This document shows positions 17,308 through 56,835 of a DNA stretch of 64,000 nucleotides, one piece after another; position 1 is the first letter of the stretch, and the number at the start of each line of letters is the position of its first letter. This stretch comes from Megalonaias nervosa (Eukaryota > Mollusca > Bivalvia > Unionida > Unionidae). A program made the translations under genes and the position numbers. Location of the stretch: NCBI GenBank assembly GCA_016617855.1, contig JAECUM010003216.1:1-64000 (forward strand), written 5' to 3'. The notes below the pieces were generated by a model that was not told the DNA's origin, made no database searches, and saw only the letters and a program-made list of their open reading frames with translations.

Positions 17308-17553
17308 AACTCATTTGTGCTAGAAATTATGCCATGTCTTTTCAAGATCACACGCAGCTCACATCTATATTCCTTAGCACGAATCGGAATAAGTATACTC
17401 ATCTACACTGATGTGGTTGTACAAATATCTAGACAACCACATCAGTGTATGCGATTATACTTACCCCGGATTCGTGCTAAGGAACAGAGAAGCGAGCTGG
17501 ATGTGATCTTGAAAAGACATGGTATAATTTCTAGCACAAATGTCTCAATATTT
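17308..17553. mobile_element. Hairpin (foldback) element, ~245 bp
   Basis: The left arm (CATTTGTGCTAGAAATTATG ... ACACTGATGTGGTTGT, to about 17420) is repeated in reverse complement from about 17434 to 17553, ending CTAGCACAAATG. The arms are ~112 bp with a ~12-bp loop. Scattered substitutions between the arms show it is not a recent artefact. No clear target duplication. A SINE-1 copy starts nine bases beyond the right arm. Confidence 0.85.
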
Positions 17554-17561
17554 GTAACCGC

Positions 17562-17830
17562 TCCGGTGGTTAGAGCGTCCGCTCGGATGCGGGATGTCGC
17601 GGGTTCGAACCCCAGACGAGTCATACAAAAGACATAAAAATTGTACTTACAGCTGCCTCGCTAGGAGCTCGGCATTAAGAGGTTAGTGTTAGGCCAGGTG
17701 TCAGGATAATGTGACTGGGTGGGACACGATGCTACATGGCTGCGGCATGATGCCCCAGTGCTAGACATTAATATAAACTGCCACACTGCCACGTAATGAC
17801 TGAAAATTTTGTAAAGCTACGTTAAAAATA
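17562..17830 (+). mobile_element. SINE-1 copy b
   Basis: tRNA-like head with A-box (GGTTAGAGCGTCCG) and B-box (GGTTCGAACCCC), then the family body (TCGGCATTAAGAGGTTAGTG, CAGGATAATGTGACTGGG), ending TACGTTAAAAATA followed by a CA microsatellite. Short internal deletions relative to copies a and c. Confidence 0.9.

Positions 17831-17872
<42 letters not shown>
17831..17872. repeat. (CA)n tail of SINE-1 copy b
   Basis: CA dinucleotide run directly after the SINE-1 3' end. Confidence 0.95.
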
Positions 17873-20224: not shown

Positions 20225-20790
20225 AGATTGCTACTTAAGGGGTGGGGGTGATATATTGTGCTACCAGTTTTGTACTCAAACCCGTAAATTTCCGCACAGT
20301 TTGCAAATACAGCAGTAGTAAACAGGAAATTCTCTGATAAAGGAATTTCAGGAATCCCATTTCTAGCAAAAATAGATTCGAAGTAATTGATTAAAGCTGC
20401 TGCGCCTGTGGCAGAGAGCTATTGTAGCTCAATAAATATTGAAAATTAATCCACAAGAAGCAAATACTTCTGACCTTTTAACTCAAACAAACATGTACCA
20501 CATTCTTGCCATGGTCTATATGGAATATTGGAAGGTATTAATGACTGCACGATCAAAAATGTGCACTGCGCATGTTTCACAGCTTTTGACCTTCGCTTCA
20601 AGCTGTTTGGAGGGTCCCATTCACCAAACCGACAACATGGCCGACTCTCAAGACTTTGAAATTCCTTGGTTATCTACGTGTTGTCGATCAAGTATTTCAG
20701 ACTGCATCATTGATGCAATAACCAATCGACAACACTTCATCAACTGTCTATCTTCAGCTATGAAATCACTACATAGTGACCATTATGGTT
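20225..20790 (-). pseudogene. Gypsy integrase domain, degenerate
   Basis: The frame continuing from RNase H reads SEILDRQHVDNQGISKS and later KSCETC, the HHCC zinc-binding part; its second His is replaced by Asn and two stops interrupt it. After a frame change the catalytic core follows: LFELKGQKYLLLVD, GAAALINYFESIFARNGIPE, and a segment aligned with the usual GFEH...S-x-x-YPQSN end. Both recognisable catalytic Asp positions appear lost: the first site reads CGTCLFELKG, and the SDNG site reads SENF. The third position cannot be placed. It would have inserted element cDNA; here it is non-functional. Confidence 0.75.
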
Positions 20791-21199
20791 GCAGGTTCTT
20801 TTTCAGTTGAAACTTGCGAGGCCAACCTGGGTTTTCATACACGATAATCTTAGCGTCTCTAATCTGCGCATGCCTAATCTTATGTAACCTTTTACTTGAG
20901 GCAGGTATATCGGACAGAACCTGATCGACAAATGCCCTAGCTTCATGTTCCAGTTCAGTATCAACTTGTACAACATGAGAGGTTGGAGCACATGAAAGTG
21001 CATTAGCAGTTATAAGATTTTTTCCCAGGAAAATGGTGTTTTGTAAAGAGACAAGCGTTAACCTCGTTCGAAATCTTTGGATTCTGAGAGATAAATCCTC
21101 CAGATTCTTTGAACGCAAAAAAGGAACGAGGGGTTTGTGGTCATTTTCTGTGCGAAGCTTAAGACCTATTAAATACATAAAAATTATTTCAGTAAGCAC
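20790..21199 (-). pseudogene. Gypsy RNase H domain and linker
   Basis: An open frame of ~138 codons carries the end of the RT-RNase H region: LKLRTENDHKPLVPFLRSKN (the T-DHKPL signature of gypsy RNase H), RIQRFRTRL, then GKNLITANALSCAPTS, normally GKN-x-x-x-ADALSR. The linker to integrase (ARAFVDQVLSDIPAS) is also typical. The frame begins after the RT deletion and ends at a stop before the integrase zinc finger. It is the best-preserved piece of the element. Confidence 0.85.
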
Positions 21200-21790
21200 A
21201 AGTGACAGTTAAAGCTTTGCAGCTATTCGTCTTGAACTAATACTAGAATATCACCCATTTGACATACTACCTCCAACAAAATTCAGGATTAGACGAAATT
21301 TTAAATGATAGTCTATTAAATCAAAGACGACCGAAGCGCGTAATGAAAGTGGTTAAATCACCAAAATCAGATGAAAGCGCCATTTTCCACAATCCGGCGT
21401 TGTCGTCTAGCTTTGAAAACTTTCGCACCAGCTAAGCGAGCCAAGGTCTGATCTACACTAGGTATCGAGTGATTTTCGCGCATTATCGATTCGTTTGGCT
21501 TGGTGAGATCTACGCAAACACGAACATTGCCATTGCCTTTTGGCACCACGACCATACCTGCGAACCATTCCTTTGGGTGATCCAGACGAAAAATGACGAC
21601 TAATGTCTTTCTTGTTATTCCGATTCACTTTACCCATTAATGAAATAGGCACCTTCCTAGGTACGCTGACTGCAAACGGAACTGCACCAGGTTTAAGTTT
21701 TATTTTGTATTCCCAGCCAGTTTTCTCCAATCCACTGAATATTCTGGGTGCATTTTTCTGTATTTATTGCCTGTATTTGGTGAACTCATC
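21200..21790 (-). pseudogene. Gypsy reverse transcriptase, frameshifted and deleted
   Basis: Starts with KTGWEYKIKLKPGAVPFAVS and PRKVPISLMGKV, the segment just before the RT palm. It continues in a second frame with MVVVPKGNGNVRVCVDLTKP and RENHSIPSVDQTLARLAGA, then shifts frame again into KLDDNAGLW, whose first Asp matches the catalytic KLDA position. A third frame holds FNRLSFKISSNPEF. The catalytic YxDD-equivalent box survives as CQMGDILV (21247-21264), with Gly in place of the first Asp. Sequence between the FNRL and QMGD boxes is partly deleted. Inactive by several independent lesions. Confidence 0.8.
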
Positions 21791-26149: not shown

Positions 26150-27575
26150 AATCCGATACTGATCTGTATCATCGGCACGTTTTTATACTCTCGCTAACGA
26201 AGTTTGGAGGGAATATTGCGCGTTGCTGTTTAGTTCGTGCGTTCATACGTTCATTATACCCTCAATATTGTGAAACCTATTTCACCCACACTTACGAAAT
26301 TTGGTATATAGAACCATATCGGCGAGAGTAGCACTGTTACATCAAAATTACGTCACCATGAGGTAATTTGTCTCGCTAAAGTGACGTTTGTATTTTCAGA
26401 CATCCGTTCTTTACAAACTCAGTATCTCAGTTCCAGTTTCACCTAGTCTCATGAAAATTGCATTGTGGATGCATACCATGATTAGCAGTCGTTCTGTTTA
26501 AAAGGAGGTCGTTGTGACCTAATTTTCATGTTTGAGCGATGTTTATATTCGTTTGTTACACCCACAATACATCGGACCCTGTTTCACCTACATTCGTGAA
26601 ACATGGGGCATATATGCATTTCAAATAGTATAACTCATTCATACCAAATCAAGGTTAATGTGACCTGATTTTCACGCGTGACTGACCTTTCTTGATTTCA
26701 TTGTGCAGTTCACTTCACCTTAAATATATTTGTTCCTGTTTCACCTAAGTTCAGGAAATGTAGTATGTGGTTACGCCTAAGCGAGTGTGACTCAGCCATA
26801 CCAAACCAAAATCAATGAGACCCAATGTTCACGTCTGAGTAACATTTGTATTTTTAGTTATTCGTTCCTTACACCCTCAGTATATAGGACCCTATTTCAC
26901 CTACACTCGTCAACATTAGTATGTCATTGCACTCAAGGATAGCAAGTATACCGTATAAAATTAGGTCAGTATGATCCATTTTTCATACTTGAGGGAATTT
27001 GTTATCTTCAGCTATCTTTATGATACGCCCTAAATATATTGAACTATATTTCACCTAAACTCATAAAGACTGGTAGATTGATGCATTTCAAGCTAGGGCG
27101 ATCGATTTTGCACGATTCAGAGTCATTTTACACGAGCAATACATTTGACCCTTTTTTACCAATACTTTTTAAATCTGGTATCTAGATGCATTTAAAGACG
27201 AGTAACTAAATCATATGGAAAACACGGAAAATACATTAAAGTGACCCTGGAGTGACTTATGTATTATCAATTATCCATTCATTAAACCTCACTATCTTAG
27301 TCTCTATTTCACATAGTCTCATGACTAATTGATTCATATATGCATTAGTAATCCTTCTGTTTTAAATATAGGTCACTGTACCCTCATCTTACGCTTCAAT
27401 GACTATTATATTTTCAGCTATCCATTCACTTCACCAATAATATAGTTAACCTGTTTCACCAACACTCAAGAAACTTGTCACGTGGATGCAACTCACTGAG
27501 AGTGACTCAGCCATGCTAAAACAATAGACCAATGTGATCTAATCTTCAGGATTTAGTGACTCTTATATTTTTCAT
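26150..27575. repeat. ~155-bp satellite array, nine degenerate copies
   Basis: The anchor TTCACC (in YRTTTCACCTACACTCRTGA) occurs at 26281, 26438, 26583, 26739, 26895, 27049, 27154 (TTTACC), 27308 and 27455. Spacing is 145-157 bp except one ~105-bp unit with a deletion. Other words keep the same order in each unit: an ATTCGTTCCTTACACCCTCA-like segment before the anchor, a GTATGTGGATGCATT-like segment after it, then GAGTGACTCAGCCATACCAA and an AGGTCA-spacer-TGACCT-like inverted repeat. The copies are old and diverged. Confidence 0.85.
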
Positions 27576-28593
27576 TGTACCAACCTGTATATTGCCGGAG
27601 ACTGTAAATGTGTACTGCTGACAAGGGGATTCGTACTTACAAAGAAAGACTTCATTCTTGTGGGTTTTTTTTTTTTTTTTTTAAAGATCGCTGTCATTTT
27701 GTAAAGGGAACTGTGTATAATCCTCTATCCAAGGTTGAAAGACTTGGTATAGCTTTTATTTGTTGCTGAACTATTAGCACTGATTATAATAAAGGCGAAA
27801 TCTTTTCAGGGCCTTGAAGTAAACAAGGTATTACTTTACTTTTTATCGGCTTATTTTTCACAATTCTGACCCATAAACTCTGTACTTTGAATCCTTTTGG
27901 TGGGTTTTGGGTAAATGCGGACGATGAATGTACTGGATACATTTCTGTTGAATGAGGATAGAAAAACAGCACTAAAACATCATGATCCCGGTTATGTAGC
28001 TAATTTGCAAAAAAGCATGCAAATATATGAACACCTGTCTTATAAACGCTTTCAGTTTCATAGGCCAACATATCGGTGAAATCTTTCAAAGAACTGAGAT
28101 TCACTGTGGAAGACTGTCCAGTCTTTTTTAATAATTAAACACGTTGTTTGTCTGTACCATGTGACAAAAGTTACAGGTTTCAAGCACAGAAGTCTGACGT
28201 TTTATCGATAAAGTACGTGGTGCTCTCCTAGTCAAATAAACAACCTAGCATAACTCTTATGGCAGTGCATGGAGACACAAACTGGTACCTTGAAACCACA
28301 GGAGTCAGACGTTTTATCAATAAAGTACGATGAAATCTCTGACAACACGAAATCACCTTATCGGAAATATAAATTAGCACACGGAGTGCAAGCGTGACAC
28401 CAGCCTCCGCTCGATTCGACTTTTGTCACGCGTTTTTTTTATCGCTTCAGAATCGCCAAAAGACTGAAAAGCTACACATATCCATTCAAAATACAGTAAC
28501 TTACCAACGCATAACTCTCGGATGACCATCGCAGCAATCTAATCGTACTCCACGGCTGAAACTTGATAGGGAAAAGAGTTATCCAGTCACAAC
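27576..28593. other. Non-coding intronic stretch
   Basis: Contains a T-run (27665-27682) and two ~30-bp direct repeats of GTCTGACGTTTTATCGATAA (about 28193 and 28305). No gene recognised. Confidence 0.5.
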
Positions 28594-29690: not shown

Positions 29691-30458
29691 TGGCTTTGTT
29701 TTCCATAATGTAACGATTCTTTCCTAGAGTAGCACATGATTAAATGGAGATGTGGCCCATGATTACCTGTCCTTGTAGCTTCAGTTTCCTCAACATAATG
29801 TTAATCTGGATTGTTGAATTACTTCCAAAATTGAAATGCAGCTTACATTGATGAAACCTTTAACGAGGTTGATTACCAGCGTTCAATTACATGATTCAAA
29901 GGAATCATTGCACCTGTCTCTTCTCCTATAAAAATCAGTCTGGCATAAATTGTAACGTTTTCACAATTGTGTAAATGACATCAGTCCACCATCAAATATG
30001 GCTGCCGCTGCTAAACCTAGGCAACAAACTTTAAACTACTTCTTGTCTGAAACTGCTCAGCAGAAATTGATCAATTTGAAAGAAAGCATAATTCTGGTAA
30101 CCAGTGCTTTGAAATTTATGCAAATAATGCTGATACGAACTCAACTATGGGCGAAGCGATTCAAATCACATCAATGTTCTTGGGCTGGTGTTCATTTTCC
30201 TGCGCTAAACTTATTCAAATATATATCTTTGTGCTAGGAACGCTATACATAAAGTATTGGAAAGAGTGCCCTAGCAACAACTGTACATAATAGCTGAATA
30301 CGTATTTGAAAATAATTCACCTAATTTGCAGTGGCCGAAGATCACACGTGACAGAAAGAAAATGCATGTTGGTGAATTAATTTCTTTTCGCTGTGACACA
30401 ACTTATTAATTGGCTGAGAATGGCATCTATCAGTCAACTATCGGATACCGGACATTCC

Positions 30459-30768
30459 TCTGGATGTGTCCTAGTGGTTAGAGCGTCCGCCTCGGATGTG
30501 GGAGGTCGCGGGTTCGAACCCCGGCCGAGCCACACAAAAGACATAAAAATGGTACTAACAGCTGCCTCGCTAGGCGCTCAGCATTAAGAGGTTAATGCTA
30601 GGACTGCTCGACCTGGTGTCAGGATAATGTGACGGGGTGGGACATCATGCTACATGTCTGCGGCATAATGCCCCAGTGCTAGACGTCACTATAAACTGCC
30701 ACACTGCAGACATCGTAGTGACATGACTGAAAAATTGTTAAAGCTACGTTAGAAATCCAAATCACACA
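30459..30768 (+). mobile_element. SINE-1 copy c
   Basis: Well-preserved head (CCTAGTGGTTAGAGCGTCCG, GTCGCGGGTTCGAACCCC) and full body, ending CTACGTTAGAAATCCAAATC with a short CA-rich tail. Its head is close to a canonical tRNA, but the element context and multicopy body show it is a SINE. Confidence 0.9.
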
Positions 30769-31225
30769 CACCCAGACACCCAGACATTTAAAGGGACTGC
30801 TAATCGACTCGATATCAATCTTGGCTTTTAACGTTGTATAATCGGGTGGCTGGAGCAAAGCTTGGTAAACCTAGTAGGGTGTCATTTTCTCGCTTAGCAC
30901 TATTATTGCGATTAATAGAAATATAATTCAGTAGCCCCTGTTTTTTGTCATCCACTGAGAGATAGAAGTCATAATGAAATAATGTTACGTCCAGTCTCTA
31001 CCTGAATTAAAAAGTTAGACGATGCGCCCCTCTCTTATCCTGCACATTGAACATGACTATTACGTCACTTCCGCTATGGAAAACACTTATGAAAGAACAT
31101 TGAAACAACATTATAAACAAGGAAAGTATTCAGTCTCTTCCACCTACACAACAGAGATGTTCATCCTTTACCGCCACATTTCCGGACGAATTTTCCCATA
31201 ACGTCGATCGTTTACCTGAAATTGA

Positions 31226-31459
31226 ATCAGAACCCAAAAACCTGGACCCTCACTCGAATCCGAATCCCCGCCTAAACCTGAACTCAAACTTGAACCTGAC
31301 TCCCAAGCAAACATCCATCCAGGCCCAAAGGCAGATCTTAAGTTTCAAGACTTTATGGAGGTCTTCCCAATCATAAAAGGTGAAAGTACAACCCATGTTG
31401 TCAAAAACGTTGCTTGGCTGCAAGAAGAACTTGGAAGTCCCATGCAGACACACGTATGA
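31226..31459 (+). other. Coding-like segment left of the palindrome, unassigned
   Basis: An open frame of 77 codons without an ATG start, bounded by stops, reads PPKPELKLEPDSQANIHPGP and later FQDFMEVFPIIKGESTTHVV and VAWLQEELG. A GTATGAG donor-like site sits at 31454. In a second frame, 31400-31565, TYEKALVDQFPTCDHQQVYE and IVNWLGTLVGSVYAVYN follow. The mixed composition looks more like decayed coding DNA than random AT-rich sequence. I do not recognise the family. It could be a host exon or part of the DNA into which the palindrome inserted. Confidence 0.25.
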
Positions 31460-31586
31460 GAAGGCCTTAGTGGATCAGTTTCCTACATGTGACCACCAAC
31501 AGGTTTATGAAATAGTGAATTGGTTGGGAACACTCGTGGGATCGGTTTATGCCGTTTATAACGTGAGTAGTATAGTGGGGCACCCT

Positions 31587-32655
31587 ACGGACAATGGGAA
31601 TTAGCATTACGGGACCTTACTTTGTACCCTACGGACAAGATTTCTACGGACAACTCTGGGCCTGTCTACGGACAAGATTTCTACGGACAAAAGCACACCC
31701 TGGGACGATATAGCGTCAATGGGAAAATACATTACGGGACCCTAATATCGAATATAGCGTCAAGATTTATAGCGTCAAAAGCACACCCTGGGACGATCTA
31801 CGGACAATGGGAATTTTGTATAGCGTCAAAAGCACCTGGGACGATATAGCGTCAATGGGAATTTAACATGGGAATTTTAACATGGGTGGGCCTGTATAGC
31901 GTCAAGATTTATAGCGTCAAATGGCACACACTGGGCCTATATGGCGTCAATGGGAATTTCACATGGGAATTTTAACATGGGTGGGACTATAGACGGACAA
32001 GATTTATAGCGACACGTAGACCGTAATGTTAAATTAGAGGGGTTGTACTCTAGCGTCAATGGGAATTAGCATTACGGGACCCTACTTTGTACCCTGGCGT
32101 CAAGATTTTTAGGGTCACAATTAGAGGGATTGTACCCTGGCGACAAGATTTATAGCCTCACGTAGACCTCTATGTTAAATTTAGGGGGATGTACCGTAGC
32201 CTCAAGATTTATAGCCTCACGTAGACTTCTATGTTAAATTTGGTCGTTTTCACTATAGCCTCAAGATTTATAGCCTCACGTAGACTTCTTTGTTAAATTT
32301 GGTCGTTTGCACTATAGCCTCAGGTAGACTTCTTTGTTAATTTTGGTCGTTTGCACTATAGCCTCAAGATTTATAGCTTCACGTAGACTTCTATGATAAA
32401 AGAGGTGGTTTGTACTTACTTTGTACCCTACGGACAAGGGGAATTGAATATGGGGAAATATTGAGCCTGTCTAGCGACAAAAAAATATTGGGTCTGTCTA
32501 GCGACAAAAAACATTGGGCCTGTCTAGCGACAAGAGGAATGGAACAGGTAGGGTCTATTTTTAGCTACAATTTTTGGTCAATTTCTTGTATGTGTTTATA
32601 GCTACAACCTGTGGAAAACCCAAGTCTATATTTATAGCCTCAACATTTCTAGCTT
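31587..32655. repeat. Palindrome module A, left arm: short GCGTCA-type motif array
   Basis: Dozens of spaced copies of a TATAGCGTCAAGATT-like word with class-specific variants: ACGGACA nearest the outer edge, then GCGTCA, then GCGACA and GCCTCA further in, then GCGACA again. They are interleaved with GGGAATTTTAACATGGGT, TGGGACGAT and TACTTTGTACCCT segments. Variants are grouped in zones, not mixed. Confidence 0.8.
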
Positions 32656-32656
32656 C

Positions 32657-32738
32657 AGTGACGTCACTGAACTGGCTGACCTGAATACTCGATACTGTGT
32701 GACGTCACTGAACTGGCTGACCTGAATATGCGATACTG
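32657..32738. repeat. Palindrome module B, left arm: paired TGACGTCA units
   Basis: Two 41-bp tandem units, each GTGACGTCACTGAACTGGCT followed by GACCTGAATA and GCGATACTGT or TCGATACTGT. Each carries the palindrome TGACGTCA (32659 and 32700), the consensus full cAMP-response element bound by CREB/ATF factors in animals. Whether it acts here is unknown. Confidence 0.85.
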
Positions 32739-32834
32739 TAGGTGGGTAGGTGAAATGAATTGGATAGGGATAAAGGGAGTTTTATAGGGACAAAGACCAA
32801 TACACACACAAAAGAAAGGGAGAAAGAAAAAAAT

Positions 32835-34190
32835 CCCAATATCTCCTATCCACACCAACGATAGCGAATGCATAAAATACACCCATATCTACTATCCACA
32901 CCAGCGAATGCGAATGCATAAAACACACCATACTTACTATTCACACCAACGAATGCGAATGTATAAAACAGACACATAGACTACCCACACCAACGAATGA
33001 GTATAATATTTATTTTTATTCTGATTCTGATTCAGTAATATTTTTATTTGTATTTCTATTCTGATTCAAGATTAAAATATTTTTTATTTTTATTCTGATT
33101 CAAGATTATAATATTTATTTTTTATTTCTGATTCTGATTCAGAAATATTTTTATTTTTATTTTGATTCTGATTCAAGATTATAATATTTATTTTTTATTT
33201 TTATTCTGCTTCAGAACTATCTTTATTTTTATTTTGATTCTGATTCAAGATCATAATATTTGTTTTTTATTTTTATTCTGATTCAGAACTATTTTTATTT
33301 TTATTTTGATTCTGATTCAAGATTATAATGTTTATAATTTTTATTTCTGATTCACGCATAAAACATACACATAGACTATCCACACCAACGAATGTGAATG
33401 CATAAAACAGACACATATCTACTATCCACACCAACAAACGAGAATGCATAAAACACACACATATACTATCAACACCAACGTATGCGAATGCATAAAACAT
33501 ATACATACCTACTATCCACACAGACGGGAAGAGAAGAAAAGCACAGACAATATCTAGTATCCACACCAACGTACGCGAACGCATACAAAACACACACCAT
33601 ATCTACTATCCACACAAACGTACGCGAACGCATACAAAACACACCATATCTACTATCCACACAAACGCTAGGCGAACGCATAAAACACCACATTATCTAC
33701 TATCCGCACAAACGCTAGGCGAACGCATAAAATACCACATAGACTATCCACACCAACGAATGCGAATGCATAAAACAGACACATACCTACTATCCACACC
33801 AACAAACGAGAATGCATAAAACACATACATATACTATCCACACCAACGTATGCGAATGCATAAAACATACACATACCTACTATCCACACAGACGGGAAGA
33901 GAAGAAAAGCACAGACCATATCTACTATTCACACCAACATACGCGAACGCATACAAAACACACACCATATCTACTATCCACACAAACGTACGCGAACGCA
34001 TACAAAACACACCATATCTACTAGCCACACAAATGCTAGGCGAAAGCATAAAACACCACATTATCTATTATCCGCACAAACGTTAGGCGAATGCATAAAA
34101 CACCACATAGACTACATACCCATATCTACTATCCACACCAACGGACGAGAACGCATAAAACATGCACATAGACTATCCACACCAACGAAT
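32835..34190. repeat. Palindrome modules C and D, left arm
   Basis: C (32835-33000 and 33355-34190) is a ~45-bp minisatellite with unit CTACTATCCACACCAACG plus AATGCGAATGCATAAAAC and variants. Within the longer block a higher-order unit of about 350 bp, marked by GACGGGAAGAGAAGAAAAGC, occurs twice (33523 and 33890). D (33001-33355) is an array of GATTCTGATTCAG, TTTTTATTTTTATTC and AAGATTATAATATTTATT words. Open frames in C exist only because the unit lacks stops in some frames; they are not genes. Confidence 0.85.
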
Positions 34191-34925
34191 GAGTATAATA
34201 TTTATTTTTATTCTGATTCTGATTGAAGATTATAATATTTATTTTTATTTTTTATTCTGATTCAGAATATTTTTATTTTTATTCTGATTCTGATTCAGAA
34301 TATTTTTATTTTTATTCTGATTCTGATTCAAAAATATTTTTATCTTTATTTTTATTCTGATTCTGATTCAATATTATAAATTTTTTTCTGATTCTGATTC
34401 AGAAATAGTTTTATTTATATTTTTATTGTTATTCTGAATCAAGATTATAATTATTTTTTATTTCTGATTTTGATTCAAGATTAGAATTATTTTTCATTTC
34501 TGATTCTGATTCAGAAATATATTTTTTTTCTGATTCTGATTTTTGTTTTTATTGTGATTCAGAAATATTTTTATTTTTTTTCTGATTCTGATTCAGAAAT
34601 ATTTTTTTTATTTTTATTCTGATTTATGATTATAATATTTATTTTTTATTTTTATTCTGATTCAAGATTATAATATTTATTTTTTATTTCTGATTCTGAT
34701 TCAGAAATATTTTTATTTTTATTTTTATTCTGATTCAAGATTATAATATTTATTTTTTATTTTTATTCTGATTCAGAACTATCTTTATTTTTATTTTGAT
34801 TCTGATTCAAGATTATAATATTTATATTTTTTATTTCTGATTCTGATTCAGAAATACTTTTATTTTTCTTTTTATTGTTATTCTGATTCAAGATTATAAT
34901 TATTTGTTATTTCTGATTTTGATTC
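34191..34925. repeat. Inner AT-rich array (module D), left arm
   Basis: About 730 bp of GATTCTGATTC, AGAAATATTTTTATT and AAGATTATAATATTT words. Its counterpart in the right arm is only ~80 bp (35285-35365), the largest asymmetry between the arms. Confidence 0.85.
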
Positions 34926-34951
34926 AACCATTCTTGCCGCTGTCTCTCTCA

Positions 34952-35215
34952 TTCCTCCAAAGCCTCCACCTCCCAGTTTTCCATCTGAGGGGCAGCGACT
35001 CTTGGTACTGGTGGTTGGGGTTGCAGTTGTGGCTGTGGCTGTCGTTGTGGTAGTAGAGCTTGTGGAGGTGTCCTCACCTCAGGTTTGACCTCACACAGAG
35101 GTCTCATGATGAGGTGAGGCAGGATCCCTCTTTTCTTTTCCTTCTCCTCTTCTTTCTTCCTTTTTTCCTCCTCTTCCTAAAGTCTGGCACTTTCTACAAC
35201 AGCCTCCACGATGGC
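34952..35215 (-). pseudogene. Broken reading frame in the palindrome centre, unknown protein
   Basis: Minus-strand frame: AIVEAVVESARL, one stop, EEEEKRKKEEEKEKKRGILP, HLIMRPLCEVKPEVRTPPQA, a Q/P-rich run (QRQPQPQLQPQPP), APQMENWEVEALEE, a stop, then ERQRQEWLNQNQ running into the AT-rich array. Frame continuity across both stops, the charged coiled-coil-like segment and the normal base composition mark this as former coding DNA and not repeat. I do not recognise a family. It sits exactly between the arms, where Foldback-type elements keep their gene. Confidence 0.45.
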
Positions 35216-35274
35216 TTACACCTATACCGTGAGATGTAAAGAGTTCAAGTAGTTTGTAAAACTTAGTCAAAGTT

Positions 35275-38195
35275 TGTAATCAAGATGAAACGATAAATCA
35301 GAATAAAAAATAAAAATAAATATTATAATCTTCAATCAGAATCAGAATAAAAATAAATATTATACTCATTCGTTGGTGTGGATAGTCTATGTGTATGTTT
35401 TATGCGTTCTCGTCCATTGGTGTGGATAGTAGATATGGGTATGTTTTATGCATTCACATTCGTTGGTGTGGATAGTCTATGTGGTGTTTTATGCGTTCGC
35501 CTAGCGTTTGTGCGGATAGTAGATAATGTGGTGTTTTATGCGTTCGCCTAGCGTTTGTGTGGATAGTAGATATGGTGTGTTTTGTATGCGTTCGCGTACA
35601 TTTGTGTGGATGGTAGATATGGTGTATGTTTTGTATGCGTTCGCGTACGTTGGTGTGAATAGTAGATATGGTCTGTGCTTTTCTTCTCTTCCCGTCTGTG
35701 TGGATAGTAGGTATGTGTATGTTTTATGTATTCGCATACGTTGGTGTGGATAGTATATGTGTGTGTTTTATGCATTCTCGTTTGTTGGTGTGGATAGTAG
35801 GTATGTGTCTGTTTTATGCATTCGCGTACGTTTGTGTGGATAGTATAGTGTGTTTTATGCATTCGTATTCGTTGGTGTGGATGGTAGATATGGGTGTGTT
35901 TTATGCATTCGCATTCGTTTGTGTGGATGTAGATATGTGTCTGTTTTATGCATTCGCTATCGTTGGTGTGGATAGTATATATGTGTCTGTTTTATGCGTT
36001 CTCATTCGTTGGTGTTGATAGTAGATATGGGTATGTTTTATGCATTCTCATTCGTTGGTGTGGATAGTCTATGTGGTGTTTTATGCATTCGCCTAGCGTT
36101 TGTGCGGATAATAGATAATGTGGTGTTTTATGCGTTCGCCTAGCGTTTGTGTGGATAGTAGATATGGTGTGTTTTGTATGCGTTCGCGTACGTTTGTGTG
36201 GATAGTAGATATGGTGTGTGTTTTGTATGCGTTCGCGTACGTTGATGTGGATAGTAGATATGGTCTGTGCTTTTCTTCTCTTCCCGTCTGTGTGGATAGT
36301 AGGTATGTGTATGTTTTATGCATTCGCATACGTTGGTGTGGATAGTATATGTGTGTGTTTTATGCATTCTCGTTTGTTGATGTGGATAGTAGATATGGTC
36401 TGTGCTGTTTTATGCATTCGCATTCGTTGGTGTGGATAGTCTATGTGTATGTTTTATGCGTGAATCAGAAATAAAAAATATAAACATTATAATCTTGAGT
36501 CAGAATCAAAATAAAAATAAAAATAGTTCTGAATCAGAATAAAATTAAAAAATAAATATAATAATATTGAATCAGAATCAAAATAAAAAATAAAGATGGT
36601 TCTGAATTAGAATAAAAATAAAGAATAAATATTATAATCCTGAATCAGAATCAAAATAAAAATAAAAATATTTCTGAATCAGAATCAGAAATAAAAAAAT
36701 AAATATTATAATCTTGAATCAGAATAAAAATAAAAAATATTTTAATCTTGAATCAGAATAGAAACACAAATAAAAATATTACTGAATCAGAATCAGAATA
36801 AAAATAAATATTATACTCATTCGTTGGTGTGGGTAGTCTATGTGTCTTTTATGCATTCGCATTCGTTGGTGTGAATAGTAAGTATGGTGTGTTTTATGCA
36901 TTCGCATTCGCTGGTGTGGATAGTAGATATGGGTGTGTTTTATGTATTCGCTATCGTTGGTGTGGATAGGAGAGATTGGGATTTTTTTTCTTTCTCCCTT
37001 TCTTTTGTGTGTGTATTGGTCTTTGTCCCTATAAAACTCCCTTTATCCCTATCCAATTCATTTCACCTACCCACCTACAGTATCGCATATTCAGGTCAGC
37101 CAGTTCAGTGACGTCACACAGTATCGAGTATTCAGGTCAGCCAGTTCAGTGACGTCACTGAAGCTAGAAATGTTGAGGCTATAAATATAGACTTGGGTTT
37201 TCCACAGGTTGTAGCTATAAATACATACAAGGGTTTTTAAACAGAAATTGACCAAACATTGTAGCTAAAAATAGACCCTACCTGTTCCATTCCTCTTGTC
37301 ACTAGACAGGCCCAATATTTTTTTGTCGTTAGACAGGCTCAATATTTCCCCATATTCAATTCCCCTTGTCCGTAGGGTACAAAGTAAGTACAAACCACAT
37401 CTTTTGTCACAGAAGTCTTCGTGAGGCTATAAATCTTCAGGTTATAGTGCAAACGACCAAAATTAACAAAGAAGTCTACCTGAGGCTATAGTGCAAACGA
37501 CCAAATTTAACAAAGAAGTCTACGTGAGGCTATAAATCTTGAGGCTATAGTGAAAACGACCAAATTTAACATAGAAGTCTACGTGAGGCTATAAATCTTG
37601 AGGCTACGGTACATCCCCCTAAATTTAACATAGAGGTCTACGTGAGGCTATAAATCTTGTCGCCAGGGTACAATCCCTCTAATTGTGACCCTAAAAATCT
37701 TGACGCCAGGGTACAAAGTAGGGTCCCGTAATGCTAATTCCCATTGACGCTAGGGTACAACCCCTCTAATTTAACATTACGGTCTACGTGTCGCTATAAA
37801 TCTTGTCCGTCTATAGTCCCACCCATGTTAAAATTCCCATGTGAAATTCCCATTGACGCCATATAGGCCCAGTGTGTGCCATTTGACGCTATAAATCTTG
37901 ACGCTATACAGGCCCACCCATGTTAAAATTCCCATGTTAAATTCCCATTGACGCTATATCGTCCCAGGTGCTTTTGACGCTATACAAAATTCCCATTGTC
38001 CGTAGATCGTCCCAGGGTGTGCTTTTGACGCTATAAATCTTGACGCTATACAGGCCCACCCATGTTAAAATTCCCATGTTAAATTCCCATTGACGCTATA
38101 CAGGCCCCGTGTGTGCTTTTGACGTTATACAAAATTCCCGTTGTCCGTAGATCGTCCCAGGATGTGCTTTTGACGCTATAAATCTTGACGCTATA
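35275..38195. repeat. Right arm of the giant palindrome
   Basis: Reverse complement of the left arm in reverse module order: short D (35285-35365), C (35366-36460, with GCTTTTCTTCTCTTCCCGTC at 35677 and 36267), D (36465-36815), C (36816-36985), a shared spacer (CCTATAAAACTCCCTTTATC), B with TGACGTCA at 37109 and 37150, then A (37166-38195). Long blocks in A agree base for base with the left arm, while small indels and substitutions elsewhere distinguish the two. Confidence 0.85.
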
Positions 38196-38488
38196 TTCGC
38201 AACAAACCGGGCTGAAATTAATGAAATCGGAAAAATCCGAGACGCCGGGTTGTCGGTGGAATTCATCAAACGTTACATTGATGTTTATTAGGCTGCGAAG
38301 AAACAATATTTGGATGCATAGATCGCCGAGGTACCTTAGTTAGCACGCATAATTACGATGATGCGGAATTTATAGATCGTGGTGCTGAATCAGCTGACAG
38401 TACTAACATCGAAGGTGAGTTTGTTCTACTTGTCGACGAATATCTGCTTCAGAGCGGAGCTAACCAACCTAAAAACGCTGAAATATAA
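38190..38488 (+). other. Coding-like segment right of the palindrome, unassigned
   Basis: Two overlapping frames look coding. One (to the stop at 38289) reads NRAEINEIGKIRDAGLSVEF followed by IKRYIDVY. The second (38282-38488, 68 codons, no ATG needed) reads GCIDRRGTLVSTHNYDDAEF, IDRGAESADSTNIEG and FVLLVDEYLLQSGANQPKN. A GTGAGT donor-like site follows the STNIEG codons. The family is not recognised. Together with 31226-31565 this may be one decayed gene split by the palindrome, or unrelated sequence. Confidence 0.25.
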
Positions 38489-38529: not shown

Positions 38530-38935
38530 CAGAATTGATAGTGGTGTCCACATGGGGTTTCCGCCAAAAGGTGTTTTATGAAATCTAACAGATCTTAAAT
38601 GAAAATGGTGCTTATCAGACCTAAAATATGGTCGCTATGGTATCCGTCTAGAAAATCTTGATATGGCTACTTCTCCTGAACTGATGGCTCAGTGGACATA
38701 GAGTTATCACTGAAAGACTTCCCATGATATCTGATTTGTCCTAAATACAAATGGTGTTGATCCAAAGTGTTCATCTGGAAAATAGTGTTATCAATACCCT
38801 TCGTGAAGGCATGATCATATAAAATTGGGGTTTTCACTGAAGATTTCACGGTGTATGTATAAATGAGAATTATGTTAATGTGACCTTCGAAAATCTGACG
38901 AATGTCCTCAGACTTACTTTAATACGGATGACCAT
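38530..38935. repeat. Degenerate repeat family R1, copy 1
   Basis: Words such as AAATGAAAATGGTGCTTATC, ACTTCTCCTGAACTGATGG, CACTGAAAGACTTCCCATGATATCTG and TTGTCCTAAATACAAATGG recur in diverged form within the block and again at 46600-46830, with a unit of roughly 150 bp. Both loci lie next to a SINE-1 copy, but on opposite sides of it. Confidence 0.5.
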
Positions 38936-38959
38936 ACTAACAGTTAAGGATTTTATGAT

Positions 38960-39256
38960 TTTTAACGTAGCATTAACAATGTTTCAGTCATATCGCTTCG
39001 ATGTCTGCAGTTTGACAGTTTATAGTGACGTCTAGCACTGGGACATCATGCCGTAGATATGTAGCATCATGTCCCACCCAGTCACATTATCCTGACACCA
39101 GACCAACCAGTCCTAACACTAACCACTTAACGGCGAGCGCCAAGCGAGGCAGCCGTTAGTACCATTTGTATAAGTTTTTGGTATTGCTCGGCCGGAGTTC
39201 GAACCCGCGACCTTCCGCATCCGAGGCGGTCGCTCTAACCACTAAGCCACCGGAAC
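38960..39256 (-). mobile_element. SINE-1 copy d
   Basis: Reverse complement of the family: head at 39175-39256 (GAACCCGCGACCTTCCGCAT, complement of the B-box region) and body TCCCACCCAGTCACATTATC. Ends near TTTAACGTAGCATTAACAAT. Confidence 0.9.
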
Positions 39257-40364
39257 GATCTTAGATTCAATCAGATTATCTTGTTATTGTATCTGGACCT
39301 TGTCTGAGAAAAGTTCAGTGATATACTATCCTATATATCAGGTTAAATATCAAAGGCCATGACAACGAATTGTATTGTTTTTATTCGTATCTTGTGAACA
39401 TGCTGACTCCGACATGGAAGAAAAATATTCTTGTTACTAAACTTTGATGTTGATGTCGATCAGATTATCAGAGACAGTTTCTGTGGTGTCTGCTTATTTG
39501 ACTTGGGCTACAACAATGTTACAAGTTAACGTCAGGGTCTTGTGTTGAAGTTTCGCAAGCTGAGTACGAGGGGAGATAATTCATTGCTCAAATCTGAGGT
39601 GAGGCATTGCGTTCTGTGGAACCTAATTTCAAAACTTGTCATGTCACTTAATCTGTTGGTAGGTATTGGTTATGGCACCAGAAAAACAAGTTATTGACTC
39701 TGTGTTGTCGGGTCGTTTACTTGTGTTGAGCTGTGAAATTATACACACTTTATGAAGGACATATATTGCTGACTGCATTATATTTTCAGGCATAGAGGGC
39801 TATTAGTTTACCAAGTTATGGCCCTTTGCTACTTATAATTTACAGGTAGGTCTTGAATTAGTTTCAGCATGACTGCATAACAATTATTCCAGTTACAGTT
39901 ATGAACTTATTGACACTCATTGATGGTTATACGCAGATGGTCCATTTACATGTTCGCAACAATTGTGCATTTTTAACGAATTTTTTACCCTTATGACTTA
40001 AAACTTAAAGGTGAGTCTGATTTACAGTATTTGTATACTCAGTATCATCCTCTATGTATGGATTGCTTATCATTACTGATTGGATCCCGTGATTATTCAG
40101 ATATATTGCTGGTAGTGCTTTGGTCTTAAATTTTCTTCTTCAAAGGACCATATCGGTGCTTCTGTATTCAATTTCAAGGGGCCGTCAGTATTAATTTGTT
40201 GAAAACTAGGGGAGAGAGCAAGCTACCTTTTCACATTAATGCTCATACAAAAACTTTTTTACAGTTTGTTAGAACAGGGCACGTTCCAGTTACAATAAAT
40301 TTTTATACTTTTTTCTTATACTCACTCGGTTTATACATTTATACATTGTTTTGGTTTGTTTTAG
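39257..40364. other. Intronic stretch before the last exon
   Basis: No repeat family or extra exon recognised. A T-rich tract leads into the acceptor at 40364. Confidence 0.45.

Positions 40365-42526: not shown

Positions 42527-43588
<1,062 letters not shown>

Positions 43589-46196: not shown

Positions 46197-46231
<35 letters not shown>
46197..46231. repeat. (GT)n tail of SINE-1 copy e
   Basis: GT run on the + strand, which is a CA tail when read with the minus-strand SINE. Confidence 0.9.
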
Positions 46232-46233
<2 letters not shown>

Positions 46234-46549
46234 TTGGATTTTTTAATTTAGCTTTTAAAACAAAATTCAGTCATATCACTACGATATCTGCAGTGTGGCA
46301 GTTCATAGTGATGTCTAGCTCTGGGGTATCATGCTGCAGACATGTAACATCATGTCCCGCCCAGTCACATTATCCTGATACCAGGACGACTAGTCCTAAC
46401 ACTAACCTCTTAATGCTGAGCGCCGAGCGAGGCAGCTGTTAGTACCATTTTTTATAAGTCTTTGGTTTGATTCGGCCGGGGTTCGAACCCGCGACCTCCC
46501 GCATCTGCGCATCCGAGGCGGACGCTCTAACCACTAGGACACCAGAGCA
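46232..46549 (-). mobile_element. SINE-1 copy e
   Basis: Reverse complement of the family. The head region (GGTTCGAACCCGCGACCTCC near 46481-46500) has a short local duplication (CATCTGCGCATCCGAGG) not seen in the other copies. The body is complete (CCGCCCAGTCACATTATCCT). Confidence 0.9.
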
Positions 46550-46559
46550 ACCGCCCCCT

Positions 46560-46880
46560 TCCCCCGCTAGCACGCTACTGATTACTCCCCTTGAACGGAT
46601 GATCACTATTACAAGGGTATTTCGCTAAATTCAAAATGAAAATGGTGCCAGTCGTACATCCAATATTGCTGCGAAGACAACTGTCTTACAAATTTTGTTG
46701 TCACTACTCCCCCTGAATGAATCGGCAGTATGATATGGGGGTTTTACCAAAAAAGACTTCTAATAATATCTACTTTGTCCTCAATAAAATGGTTCCGACC
46801 TAACATCCAGAATGTGTAACACAGCAGCTAATTTTGAAAAGCTCATTATCGCCTAAAAATATCAGAGAAATTATCTTATC
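46560..46880. repeat. Degenerate repeat family R1, copy 2
   Basis: Shares AAATGAAAATGGTGCC, CACTACTCCCCCTGAATGAA, AAGACTTCTAATAATATCTA and TTTGTCCTCAATAAAATGG-like words with 38530-38935. Confidence 0.5.
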
Positions 46881-55934: not shown

Positions 55935-56835
55935 TGTTACGTATATGTAATTTAATTACTTTTGTGTTAGTTTTTAAATTCTTTATTATTTTATTTTTTG
56001 TTTCATTACATTTTATTGTAACGATTATTTTCACTGGATTTGATATTTTTGAAAAAATATCAGTCTCATTAGAACGTAAAAGTATGACTTAAGCACTATT
56101 TTTACCTCACTTTGGTTCATAGATTTTGTAACCAATCGAGTGAGAACGATTGGCTATTACTAAAGTCATGTTCGGCCCACGTGTTAGCGTGAGAATCTGA
56201 TTCTTAGATAGGGCTATTCTTGCCTACGTGTTAAATGGCATTTTGTTTTTGCTGCGCTGTTCAAATTAGTGGTCACGTAACCCGTCATGTGAGCCACCAT
56301 GTGATCTAAAATCGCGGCTTAAAACAGCCAATTGGTAGTAGATTTATTCAGTCGTATTTCTACACCTCAGAGCTCAAGGTGTTCTATTGTAGATATCAGT
56401 TTGTTTTGAAGTTCATCTAATTTTTGGAATTGAATAATTTATTCTCTAGAAAACTACACAAGTGCTTTTTGTTTATAAAATTTCTGGGTCAAAAGATATT
56501 CAGTGGAAATTTATTCTGGAATTCTAAATAGAACATTATAAATTGTGTGTTCAAAGAGAAATTGTTGTCATCAGTACAACGACCTCATCGGACGTCATAG
56601 TCTTCCATATTGAAACTTCATTGAGATTCGAACCTGGATTCAATTAGAACTGTTTAGTGATAGGACTTATATTTTTCAGTTCTAGGATTAATTCTTGGAC
56701 TATATTCACCAACCGTAAGTCCTATTTCATATTTTTATCTTGTTTCTAGGGAAATAAATTATTTTGTTTAAATTTACAAAGTTTGTTGACTTCACACTTT
56801 TCTTATGTTACATTTGTACGAGCCTATACGTAACA
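55935..56835 (+). mobile_element. Solo LTR (family L1), 901 bp, complete
   Basis: Starts TGTTACGTATA and ends TATACGTAACA, a perfect 11-bp terminal inverted repeat with TG...CA ends. ACGC precedes (55931-55934) and follows (56836-56839) the element, a 4-5 bp target duplication. The interior matches 42527-43459 throughout. No internal retroelement sequence flanks it, so it is a solo LTR left by recombination between two LTRs. Best-preserved copy of its family here. Confidence 0.9.

Follow-up and report, generated by a model that had tools for sequence, protein, structure and literature searches.

A 6.6 kb palindrome with mirrored tandem-repeat modules and the build of a foldback-type element

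The window analysed here, a stretch of DNA of 64,000 nucleotides, contains a long inverted repeat of composite build at 31582-38199. Around a unique centre of 369 bp, the modules of its left arm (31582-34926) recur in mirror order in its right arm (35296-38199), as seen by self-BLAST and by arm-to-arm alignment. We consider it moderately probable that the palindrome represents a non-autonomous DNA transposon of foldback-like type in a eukaryotic (animal-like) genome, in the form of one copy that is damaged or recombinant; its mobility, with one copy examined, is putative.

Results

From the outside inwards, each arm consists of a motif array, two 41 bp TGACGTCA units, a ~46 bp minisatellite, an AT-rich array, the minisatellite again and another AT-rich array, followed by the centre (Table 1). 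A single BLAST match of 2403 columns (93%) joins 31753-34122 to 38050-35701. Exact inverted matches in the window reach 311 bp, or 79 bp at most once the palindrome is removed; the inverted repeat is far above chance. The first-pass annotation had described a 6.6 kb palindrome of these mirrored modules, with a minisatellite of ~45 bp, at 31587..38195. The palindrome and its modules were confirmed, but its limits are better placed at 31582-38199. The lengths given for the inner AT-rich arrays (~730 vs ~80 bp) were close to those found now (about 736 bp on the left and about 65 bp on the right), and the ~165 bp of extra outer motifs on the left correspond to the 167 bp at 31582-31748. The list of arm differences was incomplete, however, as the right arm has its own outer unit of ~145 bp and an additional ~224 bp of inner minisatellite.

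Table 1. Modules of the palindrome and their positions in the window.
Feature	Position	Strand	Description
Left-only outermost part of motif array	31582..31748	+	Cores 1-5 of six are TACGGACA, the sixth is TAGCGTCA
Left outer motif array (module A)	31749..32653	+	10-bp cores TATAGCGTCA / TATAGCCTCA / TCTACGGACA etc., nearly all pointing the same way
Left TGACGTCA pair and linker	32654..32835	+	2 x 41 bp; first copy within an 18-bp perfect palindrome
Left outer minisatellite (module D)	32836..33005	+	Unit of ~46 bp
Left outer AT-rich array (module E)	33006..33353	+	
Left inner minisatellite (module D')	33354..34190	+	With 368-bp higher-order repeat
Left inner AT-rich array (module E')	34191..34926	+	Longer of the pair
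Unique centre	34927..35295	.	GC 47%; 75-codon stop-free minus-strand stretch at 34949-35176
Right inner AT-rich array	35296..35360	-	About 65 bp only
Right inner minisatellite	35361..36461	-	About 224 bp absent from left
Right outer AT-rich array	36462..36811	-	
Right outer minisatellite	36812..36979	-	
Right TGACGTCA pair and linker	36980..37162	-	
Right outer motif array	37163..38054	-	Collinear with left
Right-only outermost unit	38055..38199	-	~145 bp; tandem duplicate of adjacent unit; array ends abruptly

Over 2482 aligned bases, the homologous parts of the arms differ by 53 substitutions (97.9% identity). The raw count over eight module pairs was 56 substitutions in 2486 bases, with gap columns uncounted and about 202 + 29 right-arm bases in array gaps excluded; three of the 56 fell within the opening four bases of the first module, outside the true match, and these four bases were dropped. 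The divergence is uneven. The first 608 bp together with the TGACGTCA/linker block carry 1 substitution in 790 bases and the rest of the arms 52 in 1692, and the TGACGTCA pair with its linker shows no substitution and one 1-bp gap between the arms. If change were uniform, the chance of finding 1 of 53 substitutions in those 790 bases would be 4e-8, for zones that were chosen after inspection of the alignment. This disparity points to arm-to-arm gene conversion or to constraint as its likely origin. The arrays differ in length between the arms by 13, 26, 29, about 224 and about 670 bp. The arm difference of about 2% compares with about 12-22% among the SINE copies of the window. In the inner minisatellite, the first copies of the 368-bp higher-order repeat are 96.7% alike across the arms and the second copies 95.1%, against 95.4% for the two copies within the left arm, so that in one of the two pairs, but not in the other, the arms resemble each other slightly more than the left-arm copies do. 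Of five TGACGTCA sites in the whole window, four lie within the 41-bp units of the palindrome.

The outer array is composed of ~10-bp cores and a small set of spacers; the 32 core spacings of the left arm include 15 bp eight times, 44 bp seven times, and 22 and 29 bp twice each. Cores of the form TAnnnnCA, counted in a restricted form of this 8-bp pattern written after sequence inspection, run almost all one way: the left array has 32 forward against 1 reverse, and the right 28 against 1. TAGCGTCA, TAGCCTCA and TACGGACA account for 23 of 32 left cores and 21 of 28 right cores. A 13-bp form of the motif, with two mismatches at most, gave 35 matches, every one of them inside the palindrome, and 100 shuffles of the window gave a mean of 2.90.

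At the left end the first five cores are TACGGACA, whereas similar blocks, in which the spacers are nearly the same, carry TAGCGTCA-type cores. Differences between such blocks were clearly in excess at core positions for 31582-31652 vs 32047-32117 (11/30 core and 1/41 spacer positions, P 2e-4) and for 31665-31708 vs 31753-31796 (8/20 and 0/24, P 7e-4), weakly so for 31657-31725 vs 31887-31956 (9/30 and 4/39, P 0.06), and not for 31711-31780 vs 32051-32120 (5/28 and 10/42, P 0.77). Three of these four pairs came from 16 self-alignments of the left array and one was picked by eye, and the four tests are not independent because of this hand selection and because one left block serves in both the second and the third. 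The idea that cores are generally more variable than spacers was rejected, since the left-array self-alignments differed at 116/592 core and 265/1006 spacer positions; the core excess is confined to blocks of differing core type. In these few hand-picked blocks, the change of core type appears to be a block-wise exchange, which simple point mutation explains poorly.

Both arms extend past their common part with array sequence, which is different on the two sides: 167 bp on the left and, on the right, a second ~145-bp unit that is 90-93% like its neighbour. The right end is CGAA (38196-38199), four bases in common with 31749-31752 on the left. Owing to the extra unit and the abrupt stop at 38199, the ends are not collinear, and the two arms were found to have no matching termini. 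Target duplications, which the first-pass annotation had proposed to look for, were not convincing at either choice of boundary. Comparison of 31540-31620 with 38180-38230 gave only two shared 5-mers and a single 8-mer pair with one mismatch, at 38225 and, within the array, at 31593, and the alternative boundary at 31735-31755 gave no duplication of at least 6 bp. No support was found for the idea that the flanks were once a continuous sequence that the palindrome interrupts. Truncation or recombination at the right end would account for the unmatched ends as well as for the lack of a convincing target-site duplication, and TACGGACA cores with nearly unchanged spacers would be expected if the left end came from a related element.

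The decayed reading frame that had been proposed for the centre is weak. The 75-codon stretch is rich in E/K and P/Q, partly of low complexity, and a weak sign of coding origin because plus-strand frames of 53 and 60 codons are also open. The centre peptide had no relative among 133 protein candidates (E 0.1), and none of 133 stretches in viral contigs that fit its pattern was confirmed. Two further protein searches yielded 1 and 5 candidates, again without a match at E 0.1. Stop-to-stop frames, eight in all (two in the centre, five in the flanks and one at 20783-21208), had no Pfam match above the cut-off, the matches below it being WG repeat (E 0.012), DUF7492 (0.21) and DUF6955 (0.31). Accordingly, the two centre and five flank frames gave no Pfam match above the cut-off to a P-type transposase with a THAP domain, and neither a MULE transposase nor the ~9 bp target-site duplication of a Mutator-like element was found in the same frames and at the same boundaries. 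The missing transposase is compatible with an element, because a non-autonomous copy would be without one.

Outside the palindrome, the window showed no second copy beyond one 94-base match of 66% (E 0.025). Several searches of viral contigs with palindrome motifs gave no match and one gave 38 stretches, each matching once; in genome contigs a palindrome motif gave 7 stretches, again matching once each. A BLAST comparison of these 45 single-match loci with the palindrome and its flanks gave nothing at E 1e-3, and the loci were therefore taken as chance. Plasmids, searched with 31582-33005 only, gave no match, and six palindrome motif strings gave none in literature text. Five SINE strings had no match in literature text, nor did one SINE string in viral contigs. 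Rfam returned one match only, a tRNA inside the SINE.

Judged by its sequence, the window looks eukaryotic, with five SINE copies, microsatellites and no long frames (no stop-to-stop frame above 218 aa among the frames listed, those running off the window ends excluded). The SINE, which may be molluscan in look, is tRNA-headed and ~290-330 bp long, with copies at 63-365, 17543-17871, 30455-30786, 38957-39257 and 46197-46550 that are about 78-88% alike; ARAGORN identified the head at 39183-39258 as tRNA-Pro. Two copies stand inverted about 0.8 kb to each side of the palindrome. This pair (30455-30786, plus; 38957-39257, minus) was rejected as a part of the element because it is two of five copies, because its identity of 86.7% lies within the 78.4-87.7% of other pairs, near the top, and because the stretches between SINE and palindrome on the two sides have no mutual similarity. 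The near-equal distances are left as coincidence.

In the left flank, 31226-31580 holds overlapping frames that by eye look like a decayed gene, and a protein search with one of them found no homologue. In the right flank, the WG-repeat-like match below the Pfam cut-off belongs to a frame at 38282-38488, and 38597-38755 is 68% like 46634-46793. Elsewhere in the window, 20783-21208 on the minus strand resembles by eye a Gypsy-type retroelement, 42527-43458 recurs in direct orientation at 55935-56834 (about 930 bp, 79% alike), and 26244-27578 holds a degenerate tandem array whose units are about 150-157 bp long and about 58-65% alike.

Discussion

In its build the palindrome corresponds to a foldback-type element, and it probably functions as one too. 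Long inverted repeats made of tandem-repeat domains characterize the foldback class, and the palindrome has them; we did not file it as a member, because a target-site duplication and matching termini were looked for and not found. The comparison with Foldback and Galileo made in the first-pass annotation stands as the best structural match; as an assignment it is not supported, the transposase being missing as well. Short-unit outer arrays within long inverted repeats are known from Drosophila FB and sea urchin TU, the latter with units of ~15 bp. Compared by description, the palindrome resembles both in its short-unit outer arrays, and 8 of the 32 core spacings in its left arm are 15 bp, as are the TU units approximately; it differs in having no convincing target-site duplication.

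According to excerpts of four reports, foldback is a structural class that has apparently arisen in more than one superfamily (PMC4079207, PMC3688188, PMC3573991, PMC3169594). The excerpt on Tm1, a Mutator/Foldback family of Meloidogyne, describes four-domain inverted repeats, inside which a motif of ~14 bp recurs, together with 9 bp target-site duplications, terminal motifs of 7 bp and, in some copies, a Phantom-type transposase; some copies are without target-site duplications or repeat motifs, one loss perhaps by crossover (PMC3169594). By this description, the palindrome is like Tm1 in its composite multi-domain inverted repeats and short repeated motif, but a 9 bp duplication, 7 bp terminal motifs or a Phantom-type transposase were not seen in it. 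Galileo, of the P superfamily in Drosophila, is described in the excerpted texts as having internal tandem repeats that hold THAP transposase sites (PMC3688188) and chimeric copies with non-matching flanks (PMC3573991). Its likeness to the palindrome, again by description, lies in long, internally repetitive inverted repeats; however, the present arms are more than twice the ~1.25 kb maximum quoted there for D. mojavensis Galileo, and have more module types and no transposase. Tetris of Drosophila virilis has, in the part of the report consulted, inverted repeats of up to 1,735 bp, ~220 bp internal repeats and 8-10 bp target-site duplications, and is similar in being non-autonomous, with internal tandem repeats in the inverted repeats and a variable middle without coding capacity (PMC4079207). 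The modules had been called unfamiliar, and their sequences were indeed unmatched in our searches, but the architecture is less so, because these excerpts already describe multi-domain composite inverted repeats in Tm1, Tetris and Galileo.

In the transposon reading, the long terminal inverted repeats would have grown through tandem amplification of several modules, and the one-directional TAnnnnCA array would most likely represent multiple putative binding sites for a transposase encoded elsewhere. Gene conversion may have acted between the arms, and the target-site duplication may have been lost through recombination or truncation at an end. This reading is supported by the ordered tandem modules in long inverted repeats around a short centre, by the one-directional motif array in each arm with a 13-bp motif limited to the palindrome, by the similar build of Tm1 and Galileo as excerpted, and by the TACGGACA/TAGCGTCA core swap at the left end together with arms ~2% apart where the SINEs are ~12-22% apart. 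It is weakened by the lack of a convincing target-site duplication, the non-collinear ends, the lack of a transposase or homologous protein, the lack of a second copy elsewhere in the window, and flanks that bear no sign of one interrupted sequence.

Several of these weaknesses fit the main rival, a local inverted duplication of one tandem-repeat locus that was never mobile and was later partly homogenised by inter-arm gene conversion, which we regard as possible though not probable. The non-collinear ends, the abrupt stop of the right arm, the short right inner AT-rich array and the missing target-site duplication would all be in keeping with it, and tandem arrays and palindromes are in general prone to such rearrangement. 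That both arms end in a like one-directional array speaks for an element, yet a duplicated locus would also show its array twice; likewise, repeat-bearing arms around a small non-coding centre are the foldback layout of the excerpted reports (PMC4079207, PMC3169594), and are compatible with duplication too. It is very improbable that the assembler mirrored one arm. Such a mirror would produce the near identity of the first 608 bp and the TGACGTCA/linker block (1/790 bases), but not 52 substitutions in the 1692 other aligned bases or the array-length differences given above, and the earlier argument from scattered substitutions and length changes holds.

Within the transposon reading, the block-wise exchange of cores is the basis of a further and rather unlikely proposal, in which the outer array would consist of transposase-recognition cores rewritten as blocks (TAGCGTCA to TACGGACA, with the spacers kept) and the copy would be chimeric, derived from two element subfamilies with transposases that recognize different cores. 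If true, the array would be a record of a shift in recognition specificity. Core-for-core exchange with nearly unchanged spacers offers a direct test of binding-site turnover.

Transcription across the palindrome would yield a long hairpin RNA, and the palindrome could promote rearrangement. Should it be mobile, it would represent a foldback-type element whose arms are long and multi-module, and would help in understanding how long terminal inverted repeats expand, remain similar and provide binding sites.
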